A stretch of DNA of 64,000 nt from NCBI GenBank assembly GCA_015521085.1, contig WAOW01000005.1, positions 124,001-188,000 of the forward strand, in the 5' to 3' direction. Position numbers and translations under genes: made by a program. This document shows, in pieces, positions 892 through 25,403 of the stretch. How positions within the stretch are numbered: the first letter of the stretch is position 1; the number at the start of each line of letters is the position of its first letter. The DNA is from Candidatus Thermodiscus eudorianus. GTDB lineage: Archaea; Thermoproteota; Thermoprotei_A; Sulfolobales; Acidilobaceae. Under the pieces are notes generated by a model that worked only from the letters and a program-made list of their open reading frames with translations, was not told the DNA's origin and ran no database searches.

Positions 892-3783
892 TCACTCTAA
901 TATGATCGCTGGCTTGGATGGCAGGGCTATCTTCTTACCTGGACTATACTCCTCCTCAACCTTGATAGAGACTTCGCTCAATTCGGTCTCTCTAGCGATG
1001 AACTCTCCTGCTTCCCTCAAAGACTTCAGCTCTAAGTGTCTCTCTACGTACAAACTCAGAATATCAGGGTTCTGCATTATAACCGGAACCAGCTTTCCAG
1101 CCTCTTTCTTGTATTCGCTCGGAAGAGCCTTTATCGCCTCTTTAATAGAAGACCGGAGGTCGAATCCCTTCTTCCTAGCTTCAATTATGCTTCGTACGAA
1201 CTCGTATTTCCATGAAGCGGCTACAACCACGTTAGCCTTGTGCGGATCTCTAACGAATTTCTTGATTTCTTTGATGTCATCAATGACCCTTCTTATAATC
1301 TCCTCAGCCCTCTCCACTTCGTCGTTTATCTTTGTCTCGTCTGCTTCCGGCCATCTAGCTAGCGATACGAAGGGCTTCTTGCCAATTCTACTCCAAGTTT
1401 CCTCGGCGACGTGTGGCACGAAGGGTGCTATCATGAGTGTAACGCTTTCTATGTATTTCTTTAGTAATTCTTTATTGGGGGATCCAGCTCTCTTGAGATA
1501 CCATTTATAGTGGGCTTGCATTCCATAGTAAGCCTTCACCAGAGCTGTTTTATAATTCATATCATCCATAGCTTTAGTGACTTCGAGAATAGTCTTGTTT
1601 AACACGCTCTCAAACCAATCATCAATAACTAATCTATAGGTTCGTCCTCTACCGTAATTCGACTCGGCGAACTTAATCCACCAAACGAGTTCCTCAACAG
1701 CTTTTTCGGCCACGCTAGGCTCGAAATTGGCGTCATCGAGTCCAGCGTCCGCGCCAGCGAGTACCTCTGCCCACCGGGTAGCATCGGCTCCCCACCAATC
1801 TAGAGCTTGTCTTAGGAGTATGAAGTTACCCTTCGCCTTGCTCATCTTCTCTCCTTCTACAAGTATCCAGCCGTTGACCCCTATTCCTCTAGGCCAGTGT
1901 TTCTCGTCAAATATGGCGACATGGTGAAATATGAAAAATGTCAAATGATTTGGAATTAAATCCTTACCGCTAATTCTGGCGTCGACGGGGTACCAGTAGA
2001 GGAACTCTCTCCTCATAGCCTCCAGAAGTTCCACAGAGATACCTGTAGCCTCCGAAACGCTTTCTGCATCACCCTTACCTAGGAATATATAGTCGAACAA
2101 CTCTGGCTTTAGCTGTTCAGGCTTTATCCCATACGTCTCCGGGTTCTGCAGGTATTTCGCTATAGTGTAATACGCCATGTATATCGTTGAGTCGCTTAGA
2201 CTCTCGATCACCCACTCCCTGTCCCAGGGCAGGGGAGTGCCCAGCTCCCGTTGATGCGTAAACGCCCAATCCCTAAGCCAGTCTATAGTACTGTGGAAAA
2301 CCTCTCGTAGCCTCAAGGGGTAGAATCGCATCCTGTCAACAGCCCTATGGGCTAGTCTCTTCCACTCTGGGTTACTATAGAGCAAGAACCACTGATTGGA
2401 TACAATCTTAACATGGGTTCGCGCGCCACAACGACAGTATACACGGGAGGGCAGTGTATATATCTGGATAGCAAAGCCCTGCTTCTCCATCCACTCTACG
2501 ATCTCCTTCTTAGCGTCGATGACCCTTCTACCCGACCACTGTCCCGCCACGTCTAATAGAACGCCAGTATGGTACTCCTTAGAGTAGACCTCCTTGGTCG
2601 CGGCTTCAAGCTTCTCACGTTCTTCCTGACTCTTGATTCCCCGGGCTTCCACCGCATCCTTTGCTGGTATTGAAGAGTAACCCTCAACTTTGATTAGGGG
2701 TATCGGCTTTAGGCCTCTAACGATGTCAGGCGCTAGCCCGTATTTTTCGAGGAGTTCGGGCTTCTCCTGTAGCTCTTTTAGGGCTATATAGTCGTAGGGG
2801 GCATGGGCCGGCACGCTCATAACTATCCCGGTACCCAGTTCGGGGTCTACGAATGTGGCTGGCAGTATCGGGACCCAGTCTCCGTTAACGGGGTTTCTAG
2901 CGACCTTACCCAGTAGTTCCCGCCCTGATATAGTGTCGACCGTGTTGACTTCGAATTTTTGATCGGCCAGTTCATCTCTCATATAAGTGTTTAAAATCCA
3001 TCTTTCACCATTGACGTCGACTATAAGATATGTATAGTCGGGTCTAACCCAGATGTTAGTCACACCATAGACAGTCTCGGGCCTGAATGTCAGTGCCGGC
3101 ACGACCGTCCCATCGTCTAGTCTAAACTTAATTATAACGGCCTCGACAGGGCTAATGCCAGCATACTCGTCTAACCGGTCATGGTCTCCGACAACCTTCT
3201 TCTCCTTAGGACACCACACCACAGGATGCTCTCCCTTGCCAACGAGCCCTTTCTCGCGTAACTTCAAATACTGCCATTCAACGAACTTGCTGTAGTAAGG
3301 GTTCAAGCTGGTCGTGTAGAACTCCCTCCTCCAGTCGATACTCATGCCATACCTCTTCAAATCCCTCTTCCATCCCCTGGTAAAGTAGTAGACCCAGTAG
3401 GCCGGGTCCTTGAATTTATCCAGCTCTTCCTCCTCCACACCCATCATTTTTAGTGTTCTAATTATGCTGGGGTCGCCCTCCCTTAATCGTAGAGCAGAGG
3501 CTACGATTGGCCCTCCCGTAGCATGCCAACCCTGCGGAAATAGTACATTATAGCCTCTCAACCTCTTATAACGTGCAGTTATGTCCGCCCTAAGTATAGT
3601 GAATGCACCGCCTAGATGCGGATACGCGTTAACATAGGGGAAAGGAAACGTTACGAAGAACTTCGGTTTTGCCTCGTCAGGCTCCGGCTCGAATACGCCA
3701 GCTTTCTCCCACTCTTTCTGCCACTTCTCTTCGATCTTCTTCAAGGTCTCGACTAGGTCTGCGTGGCCGCGCTTGGCTGACAA
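892..3783 (-). CDS. leuS: leucyl-tRNA synthetase
   Basis: Class I aminoacyl-tRNA synthetase of archaeal/eukaryotic LeuRS type, charging tRNA-Leu in the cytoplasm. The HIGH-type signature PYVNAYPHLGG lies near residue 50 and the KMSKAKGN signature near residue 644, separated by the editing domain that hydrolyses mischarged tRNA. The length of about 963 residues is normal. The frame can begin at GTG 3792, but GGAGGGTG overlaps that codon and sits six bases before TTG 3783, so TTG is preferred. It leads the leuS-tatD unit and is divergent from the small gene at 3892. Confidence 0.96.
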   Translation of the reverse strand: MSAKRGHADLVETLKKIEEKWQKEWEKAGVFEPEPDEAKPKFFVTFPFPYVNAYPHLGGAFTILRADITARYKRLRGYNVLFPQGWHATGGPIVASALRLREGDPSIIRTLKMMGVEEEELDKFKDPAYWVYYFTRGWKRDLKRYGMSIDWRREFYTTSLNPYYSKFVEWQYLKLREKGLVGKGEHPVVWCPKEKKVVGDHDRLDEYAGISPVEAVIIKFRLDDGTVVPALTFRPETVYGVTNIWVRPDYTYLIVDVNGERWILNTYMRDELADQKFEVNTVDTISGRELLGKVARNPVNGDWVPILPATFVDPELGTGIVMSVPAHAPYDYIALKELQEKPELLEKYGLAPDIVRGLKPIPLIKVEGYSSIPAKDAVEARGIKSQEEREKLEAATKEVYSKEYHTGVLLDVAGQWSGRRVIDAKKEIVEWMEKQGFAIQIYTLPSRVYCRCGARTHVKIVSNQWFLLYSNPEWKRLAHRAVDRMRFYPLRLREVFHSTIDWLRDWAFTHQRELGTPLPWDREWVIESLSDSTIYMAYYTIAKYLQNPETYGIKPEQLKPELFDYIFLGKGDAESVSEATGISVELLEAMRREFLYWYPVDARISGKDLIPNHLTFFIFHHVAIFDEKHWPRGIGVNGWILVEGEKMSKAKGNFILLRQALDWWGADATRWAEVLAGADAGLDDANFEPSVAEKAVEELVWWIKFAESNYGRGRTYRLVIDDWFESVLNKTILEVTKAMDDMNYKTALVKAYYGMQAHYKWYLKRAGSPNKELLKKYIESVTLMIAPFVPHVAEETWSRIGKKPFVSLARWPEADETKINDEVERAEEIIRRVIDDIKEIKKFVRDPHKANVVVAASWKYEFVRSIIEARKKGFDLRSSIKEAIKALPSEYKKEAGKLVPVIMQNPDILSLYVERHLELKSLREAGEFIARETELSEVSIKVEEEYSPGKKIALPSKPAIILE

Positions 3784-19309: not shown

Positions 19310-20826
19310 AGATAGCACTAGTGTATCTCTCCGACAGGCGAGTGGCGTACTCCAGCATAGCATTCCACATGCTGAAAGCCTACTTAGAGGAGAACAGGGT
19401 TCGAACAGCTACATATTTTCTAGAGGATGGGGAGCTAGTCGCTGAGCGTCCCTCTCCCCATCCCCGGAAGGCAAGAATCGTTGTGACGAGCCTCCCATAC
19501 GAGCTCCTCTACACGGAGCTGATCAAGGCCCTAGACAATGCAGGGATACCCGTCTGGAGGAATGAAAGAACCGGAGAACACCCCGTAATACTGGCTGGGG
19601 GTCCCTCTGTAACCGCAAATCCAGCGCCTCTAACACCCATCCTAGACGCTGTACTAGTCGGAGAGGCAGAGCCGGTGCTCGACGACATAATAGACGCGTC
19701 GCAAGCCGAAACCAGGAGAAGGGCTCTAGAGAGGCTAGCCAGCACGCCAGGCCTGCTAATCCCAGGCTTGAAGGAGAGGGTTAAGAGGATCTATGTAAAG
19801 GACCTCGATAAAGCATGGTACCCGGTGAACCAGCGAGTCCCTCCCGGAGTGGAGCCTGTATGGGGCAGATCCTTTATGCTGGAGACAACGCGGGGCTGTA
19901 GCAGGATGTGTAGGTTCTGCATGGAGGGAGCGATCTTCCGGCCAAAACGCGATAGAGGCTATGCCACCCTAAGGAACCTACTAGAGGCAGGGTTAGAAGA
20001 GACTAGGGCTGGGAAGGTGAGCTTCTATAGCCTAGCCTTCTTCGATAACCCAGACGCTGAGGGGATACTCGCACATGCAGTGGCCCTCGGCTTAGAGGTA
20101 TCAGTCCCCAGTATAAGGGCTGAGACGCTCACTGTCGATAGGGCCAGGCTCATAGCTGAAGGCGGTCAAAGAACGATAACGATAGCCCCGGAGACGGGGA
20201 GCTGCCGGATAGGCGAGGCTATAAACAAGTGCATAGGTTTAGAGGGGACAATGAATGCTATAGACACTGTCCTAGAGGCAGGGTTAAACAATGTAAAACT
20301 CTACCTAATAACCGGCTTCCCTGGAGAGCTAGATAACGAGTTCATAGAGACGATCCGCCTGGCGGAGGAAGCGGCGATTAGAGTTGCTAGAGGCGGAGGG
20401 ACCCTCAAGGTCTCCATAAACCCCTTCATCCCGAAGCCTGTAACCCCACTACAATGGGCTCCCGCCCCAGACCCCAAGATAGCCGCCAGGAGAATCCAGT
20501 TATTGAGGAAGAGTGTATCTAGGAAAGGCGGCCGAGTTACTTGGTATGATCCCAAATGGATCATACCACAGACCGTCTTTTCGAGGGGTGACTCCAGAAT
20601 CTCCCAGTTGATAATAGAATGGGCAAGGAGGGGGGCCAGGCTCGGACAGTTCAAGGGGGTAGCCAGAGAGAGCCGGTTGAACCTCGAATACTACTTAGCC
20701 GAGAAGCCTGTGGAGTGGGACCCGCCATGGCACGAGCTAGTTGAACATCCCTATGCTAGCCTTAGAAGCCTAAGGTTCGAGTACAAGTCCTTCCTCTCGG
20801 TTATCGCCTCTGGAAGGCATCGATGA
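19300..20826 (+). CDS. radical SAM protein with N-terminal B12-binding-like domain
   Basis: A 508-residue protein. Residues 1-150 look like a cobalamin-binding Rossmann domain (DRRVAYSSIAFHMLKAYL, VILAGGPSVTANPAPL). A radical SAM barrel follows, with the [4Fe-4S] motif C200-x3-C204-x2-C207 in TTRGCSRMCRFC. Later segments such as TIAPETGS and VKLYLITGFPGE are typical SAM-barrel strands. B12-radical SAM enzymes of this class catalyse methylations or sulfur insertions; the substrate is unknown. GTG 19300 lies inside the end of the upstream gene. The 3' end overlaps the convergent p30 gene by 26 bases. Confidence 0.88.
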   Translation: MQLEIALVYLSDRRVAYSSIAFHMLKAYLEENRVRTATYFLEDGELVAERPSPHPRKARIVVTSLPYELLYTELIKALDNAGIPVWRNERTGEHPVILAGGPSVTANPAPLTPILDAVLVGEAEPVLDDIIDASQAETRRRALERLASTPGLLIPGLKERVKRIYVKDLDKAWYPVNQRVPPGVEPVWGRSFMLETTRGCSRMCRFCMEGAIFRPKRDRGYATLRNLLEAGLEETRAGKVSFYSLAFFDNPDAEGILAHAVALGLEVSVPSIRAETLTVDRARLIAEGGQRTITIAPETGSCRIGEAINKCIGLEGTMNAIDTVLEAGLNNVKLYLITGFPGELDNEFIETIRLAEEAAIRVARGGGTLKVSINPFIPKPVTPLQWAPAPDPKIAARRIQLLRKSVSRKGGRVTWYDPKWIIPQTVFSRGDSRISQLIIEWARRGARLGQFKGVARESRLNLEYYLAEKPVEWDPPWHELVEHPYASLRSLRFEYKSFLSVIASGRHR

Positions 20827-21445
20827 GCCTGGCTGGGGCACTGGTGAGCCATAGACGAGCATACTCTCCTGGGACGCCAACGATGCTGGCCACGCCAGCC
20901 GCCGACATGGGATGCCACAGCTCGCTACTATCCCTAGCACCGCTGGCCAGGGCTATATCCACGTTGTAGGCAAACCCCCTCCTGAGCGAGAGATAATAGT
21001 ATCTCCATGTGGCCTTGTCTCGTTTCCCTAAGAGGTACCGGAGTAGTACTATGACGACCCCCCATCCCCTTTCACGGAAGAGGTTCCTCGTGCTCCTATC
21101 TACGATCCTCTCCATGCCAGGCACAACAATGTAGCCAGCAAACCTCTTATTTACGCTGGCGTATCTCGCTATCTCCTGGCTCTTGGCTTCTGCGACCAGT
21201 ATCACGCCTCTAGGCGCTTTCGCCGCCCTACCAGCCACATCACCTCGATTACTGCCTTTGACCCGGTAAACCTTGACCATCTTCACTCCCACTTTTAGAC
21301 CCTCGTCCACTATTCTACTCCAATCGCTAGGGTCAAAGGGTCTCATTCCTACAATGCAATAGCCAAGCCTCCCGGCATACCTGACAATATCTACGGCGTC
21401 ATCCACGTTTACAGGCTCTGTGTAGAGGTCGATAAAGCAGGACAC
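20801..21445 (-). CDS. rnp3: RNase P protein subunit p30 (Rnp3)
   Basis: A 214-residue PHP/TIM-barrel-like protein of the RNase P p30 family, which matures the 5' ends of tRNAs. Typical features are FIDLYTE at the N-terminus, ILVAEAKSQEIARYAS in the middle, and ALASGARDSSELWHPMSAAG near the end. It partners with Pop5, encoded nearby at 23980. The GTG start overlaps the stop of the COG1325 gene as TAGTG, showing coupling. The gene order eL15, COG1325, p30 is classical for the archaeal exosome superoperon. Confidence 0.93.
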   Translation of the reverse strand: MSCFIDLYTEPVNVDDAVDIVRYAGRLGYCIVGMRPFDPSDWSRIVDEGLKVGVKMVKVYRVKGSNRGDVAGRAAKAPRGVILVAEAKSQEIARYASVNKRFAGYIVVPGMERIVDRSTRNLFRERGWGVVIVLLRYLLGKRDKATWRYYYLSLRRGFAYNVDIALASGARDSSELWHPMSAAGVASIVGVPGEYARLWLTSAPARLIDAFQRR

Positions 21446-21882
21446 TACTCCACTCCACCTAGCCTCCTCCTATACTCTTCTATGGCGTTCCGGCGCCTGC
21501 CTCGGAACGATACAGCGACTCTAATAACGTCGTCGGACTCATACACAAGTAGCCTGCCAAGGTACGCCTCCTGCTTGCTCAACCTAAAATAGAGGGTCCC
21601 CTCCCTATCGACCCGATCCTCCAAGCTCTGCAGTAACACGCCCCTATCGCCTTCACCAAGACGCGAGAGGATGTAGTCCAGAGCACTGCTAGCGTCTTCT
21701 ACACCATCTATACGGGCCGTGATAACCCTTACCGGGTTGCCGTAATGCCCCTCATAGACTTCCTCTGCCACTCTAGCACGACTCCACCAGTCCCCTAGGA
21801 CGTGCTTTAGCGACTCGACCACTCTCTCCCTGTCCTCCGTTGCATGAACGTAGACTCTCAGTTCTAGGGATTTCACTGGCAT
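21445..21882 (-). CDS. COG1325 RNA-binding protein (exosome-cluster)
   Basis: A 145-residue RNA-binding-domain protein of the COG1325 family, long associated by gene order with the archaeal exosome and RNase P. The conserved pattern is LELRVYVHATEDRERVVESL at the N-terminus, GHYGNPVRVITARI in the middle, and LYFRLSKQEAYLGRL near the end. Relatives adopt a ribosomal L5-like fold. Its precise target is unknown. It lies between rpl15e and rnp3, overlapping the latter by one base. Confidence 0.88.
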   Translation of the reverse strand: MPVKSLELRVYVHATEDRERVVESLKHVLGDWWSRARVAEEVYEGHYGNPVRVITARIDGVEDASSALDYILSRLGEGDRGVLLQSLEDRVDREGTLYFRLSKQEAYLGRLLVYESDDVIRVAVSFRGRRRNAIEEYRRRLGGVE

Positions 21883-21954
21883 GGAGGGTCCCTCTCTACA
21901 AGACTGTACTAGACTAGCGGTTAGAGGATAATAGGATTATTGCATACTAGCCGG

Positions 21955-22629
21955 TCATATGTCCCCTTTGTGGTAGCGCTCTCTTAGCTCGTCGGGTTCT
22001 ATGAGCCTAGCTCTACCGCTTGCCTCGTGTCTCTTCTTCAAAGCCCTCTCTTTACTCTTCTTCTTCCACTTGTACTTGTGGGTGCCCTTTAATCCCCTAC
22101 TCTTCCTTAGTCCTCTCATCTTTCTGCCTGCACTAGTTAGCCCTCTGAAGGGTCTTCCCTTATGTTTCCCGCTAGACACCCATGAAAGCTCCGGGTCCGA
22201 TCTTATAGCGGGATGGTTTGGGTCGACTAGGATAACCTCGTACCACTTGTAGAGGCCGTCTTCGCCAACGTAGTAACTGTTAAGGACGACCATGTTGGGA
22301 TACTTCCTCTGAGCCCTCTCCTCCGCTATCAAACGTATACTCTTGGCTGGAGCGAAGCCGTAAACGCCCATCCTCTTAGGCCGTCTCCCTTTGTTGGGCC
22401 TAGGCTTTCTCATGCCGCCTTTTCTAACCCTTACCCTTACAACTATGACTCCTTGCTTCGCCTTGTAGCCGAGCGACCTAGCCCTGTCTATCCGAGTAGG
22501 CTTCTCTATCCTCAGTATAGCCGGCTGCCTCCTCCACTCGATGAGCCTGGCCTTCATCAGTAGCCCGTGTTCACCGTCGTAGGGCCTCTTCCACGCCTCG
22601 GCGACGTAGTGATACACTGACTTAGCCAT
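21955..22629 (-). CDS. rpl15e: 50S ribosomal protein L15e (eL15)
   Basis: A 224-residue eL15 starting [13 protein letters not shown], with the basic conserved segments [39 protein letters not shown] and the C-terminal [19 protein letters not shown]. The protein binds 23S rRNA. It has about 30 residues more than the usual roughly 194, mostly a charged tail ending ERYHKGDI. It is first in the minus-strand unit with the COG1325 gene and rnp3 and is divergent from ychF by 46 bases. Confidence 0.96.
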
Positions 22630-22675
22630 CGCGACGCACCCCGCACTGGAGTATCAGCACATCCGCTCCAGGCGA

Positions 22676-23974
22676 ATGGAGTTAGGTGTTTCCGAGGATT
22701 TTAAACTGTCCCCTCCCCCAGTTCCACCCCTAGAGCGGGGGAAGCGGCTTTTGGAGGCCTCAAAGATACTGCTTGGCGTTGTGGGGAAGACTAACGTCGG
22801 GAAATCAACGTTCTTCGCTGCAGCGACGGAGACGGTCGTTGAAATCGCCAATAGGCCCTTCGTTACAATCGAGCCTAACGTAGGCGTAGCGTATGTCAGA
22901 AAGACGTGTGTACACCGGGAACTCGGATTAGATAGATGCGACGCCTCCAATAGCCTATGCGTTAGGGGGGAAAGGTTTATACCGGTCAAAATAATGGATG
23001 TTGCAGGCCTAGTACCCGGAGCCCATAAAGGCAGAGGACTAGGCAATAGATTCCTAGACAACCTGAGGCAAGCCGATGCACTGTTACTGGTCGTCGATGC
23101 TAGTGGAGCCACAGACCCCGAGGGAGTCCCAGCCAGACCTGGAACCTACGATCCGGTGGAGGAGGTCCGCGAGATACTTTATGAAATAGACGAGTGGATG
23201 TACTCTGTAGCAGCTAGGGACTGGGCTAAGTTCTCGAAGTCAGTAGACACTGGAGGGGTCCTAGACGTGTCCGGTGCAATAGCGCAGAGGCTTTCCGGCT
23301 TGAGTATACGTAAATCCCATGTAGTCGCTGCACTAGACAAGACCGGGCTAAGAGATAAGAAGCTATCCTCCTGGAGTAGCGACGATCTAAGGAACTTCAT
23401 GAAAACTCTGAGAGAGGTATCGAAACCAGTAATAATAGTAGCTAACAAGGTGGACGTTCCTACCGCTTGGAGAAACATAGAGAGGCTACGCCAGGCGTAT
23501 CCCAGCTACCCGGTCATTCCTGTAAGCTCAGCAGCAGAACTACTCTTAAAACGACTGGCAAAAGAGGGGGTAATCAGATACCTGCCAGGCGACCCCAGCT
23601 ATGAGATACTAGACGAATCTAGGATTGACGAGAAAACCAGGAAACTGTTAGAGATCGTAGATAGAGTCCTGGAGAAATGGGGGTCGACAGGCGTCCAGGC
23701 AGCCATAAATACAGCTGTCCTTGACGTTTTAAATCACATAGCGGTTTATCCCGTCGACGATCCGAATAGATTCACCGATAAGAATGGCAGGATTCTGCCC
23801 GACGTCATCCTAGTCCCGAGGGGTACTACTGCGAGGGACTTAGCATATATCATACACACTGACTTAGGTAAAACATTCCTTTACGCGATTAATGCGAAGA
23901 CGAAGCAGAGGGTAGGCGAGTCCTATGTACTACAGGATAACGATGTGATAAAGATAGTAGCCGCCGCCAGATGA
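22676..23974 (+). CDS. OBG-family GTPase, archaeal YchF type
   Basis: A 432-residue TRAFAC GTPase. G1 is GVVGKTNVGKST near 34-45, G3 is DVAGLVPGAHKGRGLGN near 103-119, and G4 NKVD near 252. A C-terminal TGS domain (about 350-432) contains VPRGTTARDLAYIIHTDLGK. The YchF/OLA1 family binds ribosomes and can hydrolyse ATP as well as GTP. The asparagine-based G4 here suggests guanine specificity. It is divergent from rpl15e and convergent with the Pop5 gene. Confidence 0.92.
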   Translation: MELGVSEDFKLSPPPVPPLERGKRLLEASKILLGVVGKTNVGKSTFFAAATETVVEIANRPFVTIEPNVGVAYVRKTCVHRELGLDRCDASNSLCVRGERFIPVKIMDVAGLVPGAHKGRGLGNRFLDNLRQADALLLVVDASGATDPEGVPARPGTYDPVEEVREILYEIDEWMYSVAARDWAKFSKSVDTGGVLDVSGAIAQRLSGLSIRKSHVVAALDKTGLRDKKLSSWSSDDLRNFMKTLREVSKPVIIVANKVDVPTAWRNIERLRQAYPSYPVIPVSSAAELLLKRLAKEGVIRYLPGDPSYEILDESRIDEKTRKLLEIVDRVLEKWGSTGVQAAINTAVLDVLNHIAVYPVDDPNRFTDKNGRILPDVILVPRGTTARDLAYIIHTDLGKTFLYAINAKTKQRVGESYVLQDNDVIKIVAAAR

Positions 23975-23979
23975 GAACC

Positions 23980-24564
23980 CTACAGCTTCTTCCTAGCACC
24001 TACTCTTTTAAGCGCCTTTTTGAGGGTCCCACTTGTCCCCAATGGCAAGATCCGGATCTTCACCCCGTTTACATCACGTACCAGGCCTAGGATGGCGAGT
24101 GCATGGTATTTGTATAGGTGCTTGACCCTTATGACGCCAAGACGCTTCACGGGGTCATAGTAGACTAGGTGTATTCCTGAATCGACAAGACCAACCTCTC
24201 CTAGTATCTCTTCGGCGGTTTTGATTATAGCCCTGGCTAGGCTCCGTTCATCTATATTTTCTGTCGTCTCGATAGTGAAGACTATGTATCTGCGTCTAGG
24301 CTTCTGGCTGGTTTCCTCTACGGCTTTCCTTATTCTGTGATTTATCGAGGCAGCCGTTAGGAGTCCCTTAAGGGTCTTCCTCACCCTGGACACTATACTA
24401 TAAATATATATCATAAATATAATTAGTATTATGTCGACCACTAGTAACGGTACCAGCCAGTCCACGTTAGCATCACCTGACTCCTCAGTGGAGAGAAGCT
24501 CCGGCCATCTAGAGAGTCTCTGGTCGGTCTCTTCATCATCGGACCCAAATAACCAGGTGACCAT
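23980..24564 (-). CDS. rnp2: RNase P subunit Pop5 (Rnp2) with N-terminal membrane-anchor extension
   Basis: The C-terminal 105 residues are a Pop5-type RNase P protein. It starts RRRYIVF at 90-96 and continues through GLVDSGIHLVYYDPVKRLGV and IRVKHLYKYHALAILGLV to ILPLGTSGTLKKAL. Ahead of it is an extension with an acidic N-terminus, a 22-residue hydrophobic segment (36-57) and a basic patch SRVRKTLKG, which fits a single membrane anchor with the RNase P domain inside. ATG 24564 gives 194 residues. GTG 24465, preceded by GGTGA at seven bases, gives 161 and still keeps the anchor. Typical archaeal Pop5 has about 100-150 residues. Confidence 0.85.
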   Translation of the reverse strand: MVTWLFGSDDEETDQRLSRWPELLSTEESGDANVDWLVPLLVVDIILIIFMIYIYSIVSRVRKTLKGLLTAASINHRIRKAVEETSQKPRRRYIVFTIETTENIDERSLARAIIKTAEEILGEVGLVDSGIHLVYYDPVKRLGVIRVKHLYKYHALAILGLVRDVNGVKIRILPLGTSGTLKKALKRVGARKKL

Positions 24565-24572
24565 TAACTGTA

Positions 24573-24581
24573 TTATTTAAA
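24573..24581 (+). promoter_or_regulatory. TATA box between rnp2 and psmA
   Basis: TTATTTAAA lies 46 bases before the psmA ATG. Its complement CTTTAAATAA could also serve the minus-strand Pop5 gene, placing that start near 24551, which would favour the internal GTG 24465 for Pop5. Confidence 0.5.
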
Positions 24582-24626
24582 GCTCCCGCACCATCCTACT
24601 CCCTGGAGACGAGGGTGTATGACTGA

Positions 24627-25403
24627 ATGGCGATGATGCCTCAAACAGCGTATGATAGGGCTACCATAATATTCTCGCCAGAGGGCGACCTATACCAGGT
24701 AAGATACGCCTTCGAGGCCGTCAGAAAGGGATGGACGAGTATCGGTATAAAGGGAGTCGACGCCGTGGTACTGGCCGCCGAGAAGAGGAAACTCACGAAA
24801 CTACTAGACTTAGAGAGCATAGAGAAGATATACAAAGTAGACGATCACATCGGAGTGGCATTCGCTGGCATGGGTAGCGATGGGAGGATACTGATAGACC
24901 AGGCGAGGTTGATAGCGGTCAGACACCGACTGCTCTATGGCGAACCACCCACAGTCGACTACGTGGCGAAGGCTATCTCAGACATAAAACAACTATACAC
25001 CCAACACGGCGGGGTCAGGCCCTTTGGAGTATCCCTAATATTCGGAGGCATAAACCCCGATGGGAAGATAAGACTTATAAAAACAGACCCTGGAGGGCAA
25101 TTCTTCAACTACTACGCAGTAGCTATCGGCTCCGGTGAGTCCTTCGTCAACGGATTCCTAGAGCAAAACTATAGAAAAGACATGGGTTTCGACGAGATAA
25201 TTGATCTAGTCTTGGAGGCAATATTCAAGAGCAAAATTGAAGGAGGCGGCGAGAAAATGGAGAAAGAAGAACTAATAGAAGAGCTACCTCGTCTGGTCGA
25301 GATAGGATACGTTAAATCCGACGATCGAATTTTCAAGAAGATGACCCCAGAAGAGATACGAGAACACGTCGACAAGCTAAGGGATAAACTTTTAAATAAA
25401 TAA
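24627..25403 (+). CDS. psmA: 20S proteasome alpha subunit
   Basis: A 258-residue alpha subunit forming the outer rings of the archaeal 20S proteasome. The N-terminal gating and signature region is IFSPEGDLYQVRYAFEAVRKG (residues 12-32). The alpha fold continues with HIGVAFAGMGSDGRILIDQAR and PFGVSLIFGGINPDG. The C-terminus ends LRDKLLNK, without an obvious HbYX feature, as expected of a core subunit. GAGGGTG precedes the ATG. It heads the plus-strand exosome-proteasome string. Confidence 0.97.
   Translation: MAMMPQTAYDRATIIFSPEGDLYQVRYAFEAVRKGWTSIGIKGVDAVVLAAEKRKLTKLLDLESIEKIYKVDDHIGVAFAGMGSDGRILIDQARLIAVRHRLLYGEPPTVDYVAKAISDIKQLYTQHGGVRPFGVSLIFGGINPDGKIRLIKTDPGGQFFNYYAVAIGSGESFVNGFLEQNYRKDMGFDEIIDLVLEAIFKSKIEGGGEKMEKEELIEELPRLVEIGYVKSDDRIFKKMTPEEIREHVDKLRDKLLNK

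Follow-up and report, generated by a model that had tools for sequence, protein, structure and literature searches.

A predicted membrane anchor on the RNase P protein Pop5, conserved in the order of Sulfolobus and its sister lineages

RNase P, which trims every tRNA at its front end, is regarded as a soluble enzyme and ranks among the most studied ribonucleoproteins. The archaeal Pop5 structures that we found, from Pyrococcus (PDB codes: 2av5 and 2czv), Thermococcus (3wz0) and Methanocaldococcus jannaschii (6k0a), are all euryarchaeal and all of short, soluble proteins (120–134 amino acids), in which only some 12–15 residues precede the RY motif of the RRM-like domain. The M. jannaschii enzyme dimerises through a central heterotetramer of Pop5 and Rpp30, and the N-terminal tail of Pop5 helps to hold the catalytic RNA (PMC6565675). 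The main text of a comparative study from 2016, covering the archaeal RNase P proteins of more than 600 genomes, contains neither 'membrane' nor 'extension' (PMC4919917), and 'membrane' is likewise absent from the reviews that we checked. We found no mention of a membrane-anchored Pop5 in the open-licence literature, although an unnoticed report or a topology prediction in a database may exist.

The 64,000-nucleotide stretch of DNA analysed here (hereafter, the window) encodes a Pop5 that shares the RRM-like domain and the RY and SGT motifs with the proteins of known structure, whereas in this protein and its relatives 40–60 residues, including a hydrophobic helix, precede the RY motif. Computation establishes the identity of Pop5, the translation of the helix, its conservation, the asymmetry of charge about it and the presence of one such gene per genome. 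We propose, with a probability of roughly 0.8, that RNase P is tethered to the membrane across an entire clade through an anchored Pop5, the only Pop5 detected. The gene and its domain are located as follows:

23980..24564, minus strand: pop5 open reading frame, 194 amino acids from the ATG
23980..24465, minus strand: pop5 as most likely translated (GTG start, 161 amino acids; chosen on the upstream AGGTGAT and the starts of orthologues), a Pop5 (RNase P protein component 2) with a predicted membrane anchor
24004..24291, minus strand: Pop5/Rpp14 domain, RRM-like (PF01900; PDB 2czv, 2av5 and 6k0a by sequence and by fold)

The Pfam model RNase_P_Rpp14 (PF01900) matches residues 92–187, numbered from the ATG, with 65.2 bits against a cut-off of 23 (E 6.3e-18), close to residue 90, where the original prediction had the domain start. 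The best PDB sequence matches are all archaeal RNase P component 2 chains (2av5, 2czv, 6k0a and 3wz0). The AlphaFold model (six sequences; mean pLDDT 85.7) comprises a single helix over residues 4–52, of lower confidence (60–87), followed by the Pop5 fold (about 95). Foldseek matches this model to Pop5 of P. horikoshii with an E value of 9e-12 and a TM-score of 0.81 by target; its matches run in the order 2czv, 2av5, 3wz0 and 6k0a (rmsd 1.2–2.2), followed by yeast and human RNase P subunits. The conserved residues of Pop5 (R17-Y18, R71 and S103-G104-T105 in P. horikoshii numbering; PMC4919917) are retained within RRRYIVF, GVIRV and TSGT, respectively, the equivalence of R71 being judged by eye. 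In the aligned Pop5 sequences of Sulfolobaceae (e.g. L192:3968-4396 and L132:1470-1892), the arginine of 'GIxR' is a serine ('GIIS'). The NCBIfam equivalog NF002986, a 120-position model with a naming threshold, also matches the domain, albeit with 49.9 bits, below its cut-off of 195; the Pop5 of Metallosphaera yellowstonensis misses this cut-off too (36.6 bits), and the shortfall of both therefore points to divergence of a domain that is present.

Only one PF01900 match was found per genome, and the genome of the window also has an archaeal RNase P RNA (175 bits), Rpp29 and Rpp21. The partner of Pop5 is probably encoded nearby:

20801..21445, minus strand: probable Rpp30, soluble and very divergent (weak PF01876 match, E 0.054), adjoining a PF01877 gene

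A PDB sequence search with this protein gave no match, and it is recognised as Rpp30-like mainly by its neighbourhood: it adjoins the PF01877 gene, as does the gene in the Rpp30 position at two related loci, L132 and L192. The L192 gene in that position likewise has no NCBIfam match. The gene order at both loci is L15e, the PF01877 gene, the Rpp30-position gene, Pop5 and psmA; in the window (20801-25403), Pop5 lies apart, divergent from psmA and beyond a GTPase gene, and thus would need a promoter of its own. Exosome genes lie near pop5 both in the window and in L192. One could argue from the GIIS of the Sulfolobaceae, which lacks the GIxR arginine taken as the highly conserved R71 (PMC4919917), that the anchored Pop5 is no longer an RNase P subunit, but a derived membrane RNA-binding protein. 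We regard this as very improbable: no genome has a second Pop5 match, an RNase P RNA persists in the window's genome together with Rpp29 and Rpp21, the gene stays within a cluster of ribosome, RNase P, proteasome and exosome genes in L192 and L132, and the window Pop5 retains RY, GxxR and SGT. An anchored Pop5 that still serves RNase P is the reading that we pursue below.

Upstream of the domain, three features bear on where translation begins:

24472..24478, minus strand: Shine-Dalgarno sequence AGGTGAT of the GTG start, 6 nt from GTG 24465
24574..24581, minus strand: TATA-like element TTTAAATA, recognised by its sequence
24466..24564, minus strand: in-frame acidic leader from ATG 24564, probably untranslated (no Shine-Dalgarno sequence and no counterpart in orthologues)

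The translated protein almost certainly starts at GTG 24465, to judge from the sequence, and would be the 161-residue chain that begins MDWLVPLLVVDII. None of the remaining start codons upstream of the domain, namely ATG 24564, GTG 24441, ATG 24414, GTG 24393 and GTG 24384, has a Shine-Dalgarno match. The TATA-like TTTAAATA starts only some 17 nt from ATG 24564. The usual spacing between an archaeal TATA box and the transcription start would place the latter near 24550, and transcription would then begin inside the proposed leader and downstream of that ATG; a start upstream of the codon is unlikely with the box so close. Moreover, the start of most orthologues lies no more than about 10 residues from the helix: the nearest sequences, of the same genus, open with MDTVSIAALM and MDTAGIAALI, others with MADWLTILL and MDWLCLTL, and the window protein with MDWLVPLLVV. 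Given the missing Shine-Dalgarno sequence, the proximity of the TATA-like box and these orthologue starts, the acidic leader (residues 1–33 from ATG 24564) is probably untranslated. We rejected a start at ATG 24564 on the first two grounds and because the acidic leader is not common to orthologues; a start after the helix was rejected since it has no Shine-Dalgarno sequence in the window and is impossible in 24 species. The original prediction likewise called GTG 24465 better supported than ATG 24564, and noted that the GTG codons after the helix lack a ribosome-binding site. Its N-terminal layout of acidic segment, helix and basic patch stands for the last two elements only; without the acidic segment, it most likely becomes Met-Asp, helix and basic linker.

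The remainder of the N-terminal region is made up of two elements:

24391..24459, minus strand: predicted transmembrane helix WLVPLLVVDIILIIFMIYIYSIV, approximately residues 3–25 of the 161-residue protein (Kyte-Doolittle, AlphaFold and presence across the class)
24292..24390, minus strand: basic helical linker on the predicted cytoplasmic side of the anchor (part of the model helix 4–52; class-wide charge)

The anticipated hydrophobic helix before the Pop5 domain is present: the 19-residue Kyte-Doolittle mean reaches a maximum of 2.81 at residues 7–25 from GTG 24465 (approximately 40–58 from the ATG), whereas the maxima of nine neighbouring soluble proteins, among them Rrp4, Rrp41, Rrp42, SBDS, PsmA and the Rpp30-like protein, are only 0.27–1.81.

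A related-locus search with the window Pop5 alone gave no match, and one with an alignment of Sulfolobaceae Pop5 sequences gave five named loci. PF01900 was searched for in 60 relatives, in 200 genomes across the phylum and in 98 of the class. For 158 species (112 in the class and 46 elsewhere in the phylum), we read the DNA and examined the frame upstream of the RY motif; the class sample comprises 11 families of the window's order and three families outside it. The former include the window's own family (f1, with G018, an 'Acidilobaceae archaeon') and the Sulfolobaceae (f11, with Metallosphaera javensis G236, M. yellowstonensis G205 and Candidatus Aramenus sulfurataquae G160); we take G126, G016 and G050 to be Sulfolobus acidocaldarius DSM 639, Aeropyrum pernix K1 and Ignicoccus hospitalis, respectively. 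With a 19-residue Kyte-Doolittle mean of at least 1.4 as the criterion, a hydrophobic segment precedes the Pop5 domain in 111 of the 112 class species, some helices being moderately hydrophobic (e.g. G250, 1.44). A stricter test, in which a score of at least 1.6 is combined with a standard start codon in front, retains 106 class species and none of the 46 outside, where the domain usually begins within a few residues of a start codon; one of the latter (G129) has a hydrophobic upstream stretch, yet no start codon before it. That the segment is chance in-frame upstream sequence was rejected, as none with a start codon occurs in those 46. The brevity and solubility ascribed to archaeal Pop5 proteins at the outset apply to the euryarchaeal proteins of known structure and to the Thermoproteota that we sampled beyond the class. 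In four class genomes, which have no ATG, GTG or TTG before the helix, its translation would have to begin at CTG or ATA.

The sole exception in the class, a member of the window's order (G039; locus L069, near position 2944), has a Pop5 of 117 amino acids that starts at the domain and overlaps the end of the upstream gene. Other members of its family (G049 and G059) have the helix, so that G039 has probably lost it secondarily; its Pop5 also implies that the anchor is not strictly required. In each of the three class families outside the order (f47, f48 and f49), two successive hydrophobic segments are found. The two-helix loci are L128/L196, L129/L197 and L127/L198 (G245, G246 and G248). A tree of the Pop5 domain requires at least three changes of the helix trait, with long branches joined; the domain is too short to resolve deep order, and we therefore read the distribution by taxonomy. 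Within the phylum, several near-complete genomes of families f13, f14, f16 and f19 yielded no match to Pop5, not even when the class profile was used, so in these Pop5 is either lost or unrecognisable. To judge by its sequence distribution, the predicted anchor is no local novelty: it is conserved throughout the order and in its sister lineages.

Is the helix, nevertheless, an illusion of annotation, with translation starting downstream of it and yielding a short, soluble Pop5? In the window, three in-frame start codons located at the helix or beyond it (ATG 24414, GTG 24393 and GTG 24384) would permit this, but all three lack a ribosome-binding site. Across the class, 24 species have no ATG, GTG or TTG anywhere from the helix centre to the RY motif, and 69 have no ATG there. 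Candidate start codons are similar in number before (187) and after (180) the helix, while a Shine-Dalgarno sequence of at least 4 nt is found before it in 84 of 111 genomes versus 27 of 111 after it. In 81 of the 82 testable genomes, the stop codon of the upstream open reading frame on the same strand comes ahead of the helix centre, in many cases no more than about 20 nt from where the helix begins, and in 20 genomes it overlaps the start codon of pop5. At L132, for example, in a genome that is presumably that of S. acidocaldarius, the TTG start of pop5 overlaps the stop of the upstream gene (1889..2440), which is located where Rpp30 would be expected. Purifying selection acts on the helix region, which the original prediction had put forward for a check of constraint: the N-terminal dN/dS is below 1 in 20 of 20 close pairs, mostly 0.1–0.5, the value of 0.89 coming from a pair with few changes. 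Constraint is weaker than in the Pop5 domain (dN/dS about 0.1), as expected if hydrophobicity is kept rather than the exact sequence. Nor do all orthologues begin downstream of the helix, the outcome that would have told against an anchor; they start just before it in 14 class families. We also rejected the idea that the helix arises where pop5 overlaps an upstream gene out of frame: in the window pop5 is divergent from psmA, and elsewhere the upstream gene stops at the helix start. Translation and conservation of the helix are thus well supported, and a start downstream of it, the least probable of the alternatives, is already largely refuted.

The charges flanking the helix are strikingly one-sided: summed over the order, the stretch from the nearest start to the helix holds 2 Lys/Arg and 47 Asp/Glu, and the 15 residues after it hold 432 and 95, respectively, net charge being higher on the C-terminal side in 99 of 106 cases. 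The positive-inside pattern proposed for a cytoplasmic RNase P domain thus extends to the scale of the clade (Lys/Arg 2 before and 432 after), and predicts an N-out/C-in topology with the Pop5 domain in the cytoplasm. With two helices in f47, f48 and f49 and both ends inside, the domain would again be cytoplasmic. Membrane localisation is predicted from these sequence features, and a translated helix could instead remain outside the membrane, as an amphipathic or hydrophobic helix that packs against another subunit of RNase P or a partner specific to the clade, or serves dimerisation. Hydrophobic surfaces do join RNase P subunits (PMC4919917), and the N-terminal tail of M. jannaschii Pop5 lines a basic cleft that holds the RNA (PMC6565675). 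However, the segment is uniformly hydrophobic over at least 19 residues, conserves no residues across the class, whereas packing surfaces usually conserve specific ones, has an extreme positive-inside charge pattern and is doubled into two successive helices in the outside families. A packing helix is consequently unlikely, albeit the most credible of the alternatives that we considered.

If the helix is inserted, as we infer, Pop5 would be a single-pass reverse signal anchor: the N-terminus outside, one transmembrane helix, the basic helical linker and the cytoplasmic Pop5 domain. By pairing with Rpp30 and binding the catalytic RNA, it would hold the whole RNase P ribonucleoprotein at the inner face of the membrane. 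Since the Pop5 tail is central in the M. jannaschii particle, an anchor there would hold the particle by its centre, and a (Pop5-Rpp30)2 dimer, as in Methanocaldococcus, would provide two anchors per particle. The same arrangement would apply across the order (Sulfolobaceae, Acidilobaceae and relatives), with the two-helix version in the three outside families, and would be absent elsewhere in the phylum. The benefit may be that tRNAs are processed beside membrane-associated RNA machinery.

If this is true, an entire archaeal lineage would position an essential and near-universal enzyme at the membrane. As the original prediction supposed, a tethered tRNA-processing enzyme would be new, in that we found no description of one in the open-licence literature; the tethering itself is predicted. 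The clade whose sole Pop5 is predicted to be anchored includes the genetically tractable Sulfolobaceae, and recombinant Pop5 from these organisms would probably need removal of its first 25–30 residues, or detergent.

The most concrete lead to the purpose of the anchor may be the exosome of Saccharolobus solfataricus, which is reported at the membrane (Roppelt 2010, as cited in PMC7613921). As far as that citation describes it, it is, like the proposed RNase P, an RNA-processing complex of the same order at the membrane; unlike Pop5, the exosome subunits encoded in the window have no transmembrane helix by Kyte-Doolittle analysis. Conceivably, though we hold this only tentatively, tRNA 5′ processing in the order of Sulfolobus and its sister lineages takes place on a membrane-tethered RNase P, within a membrane hub that includes the exosome, the anchor having been acquired once at the base of the class and kept in nearly all descendants.

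Bacterial RNase Y is a core RNA-processing enzyme attached to the membrane by an N-terminal helix. Similarly, bacterial RNase E, with its membrane-targeting sequence, resembles the anchored Pop5 in being a core RNA-processing enzyme at the inner membrane face, with about 93% reportedly at the membrane (PMC12594526). Both, however, are unrelated mRNA endonucleases, whereas here the predicted anchor is on a protein subunit of the ribozyme for tRNA 5′ ends.
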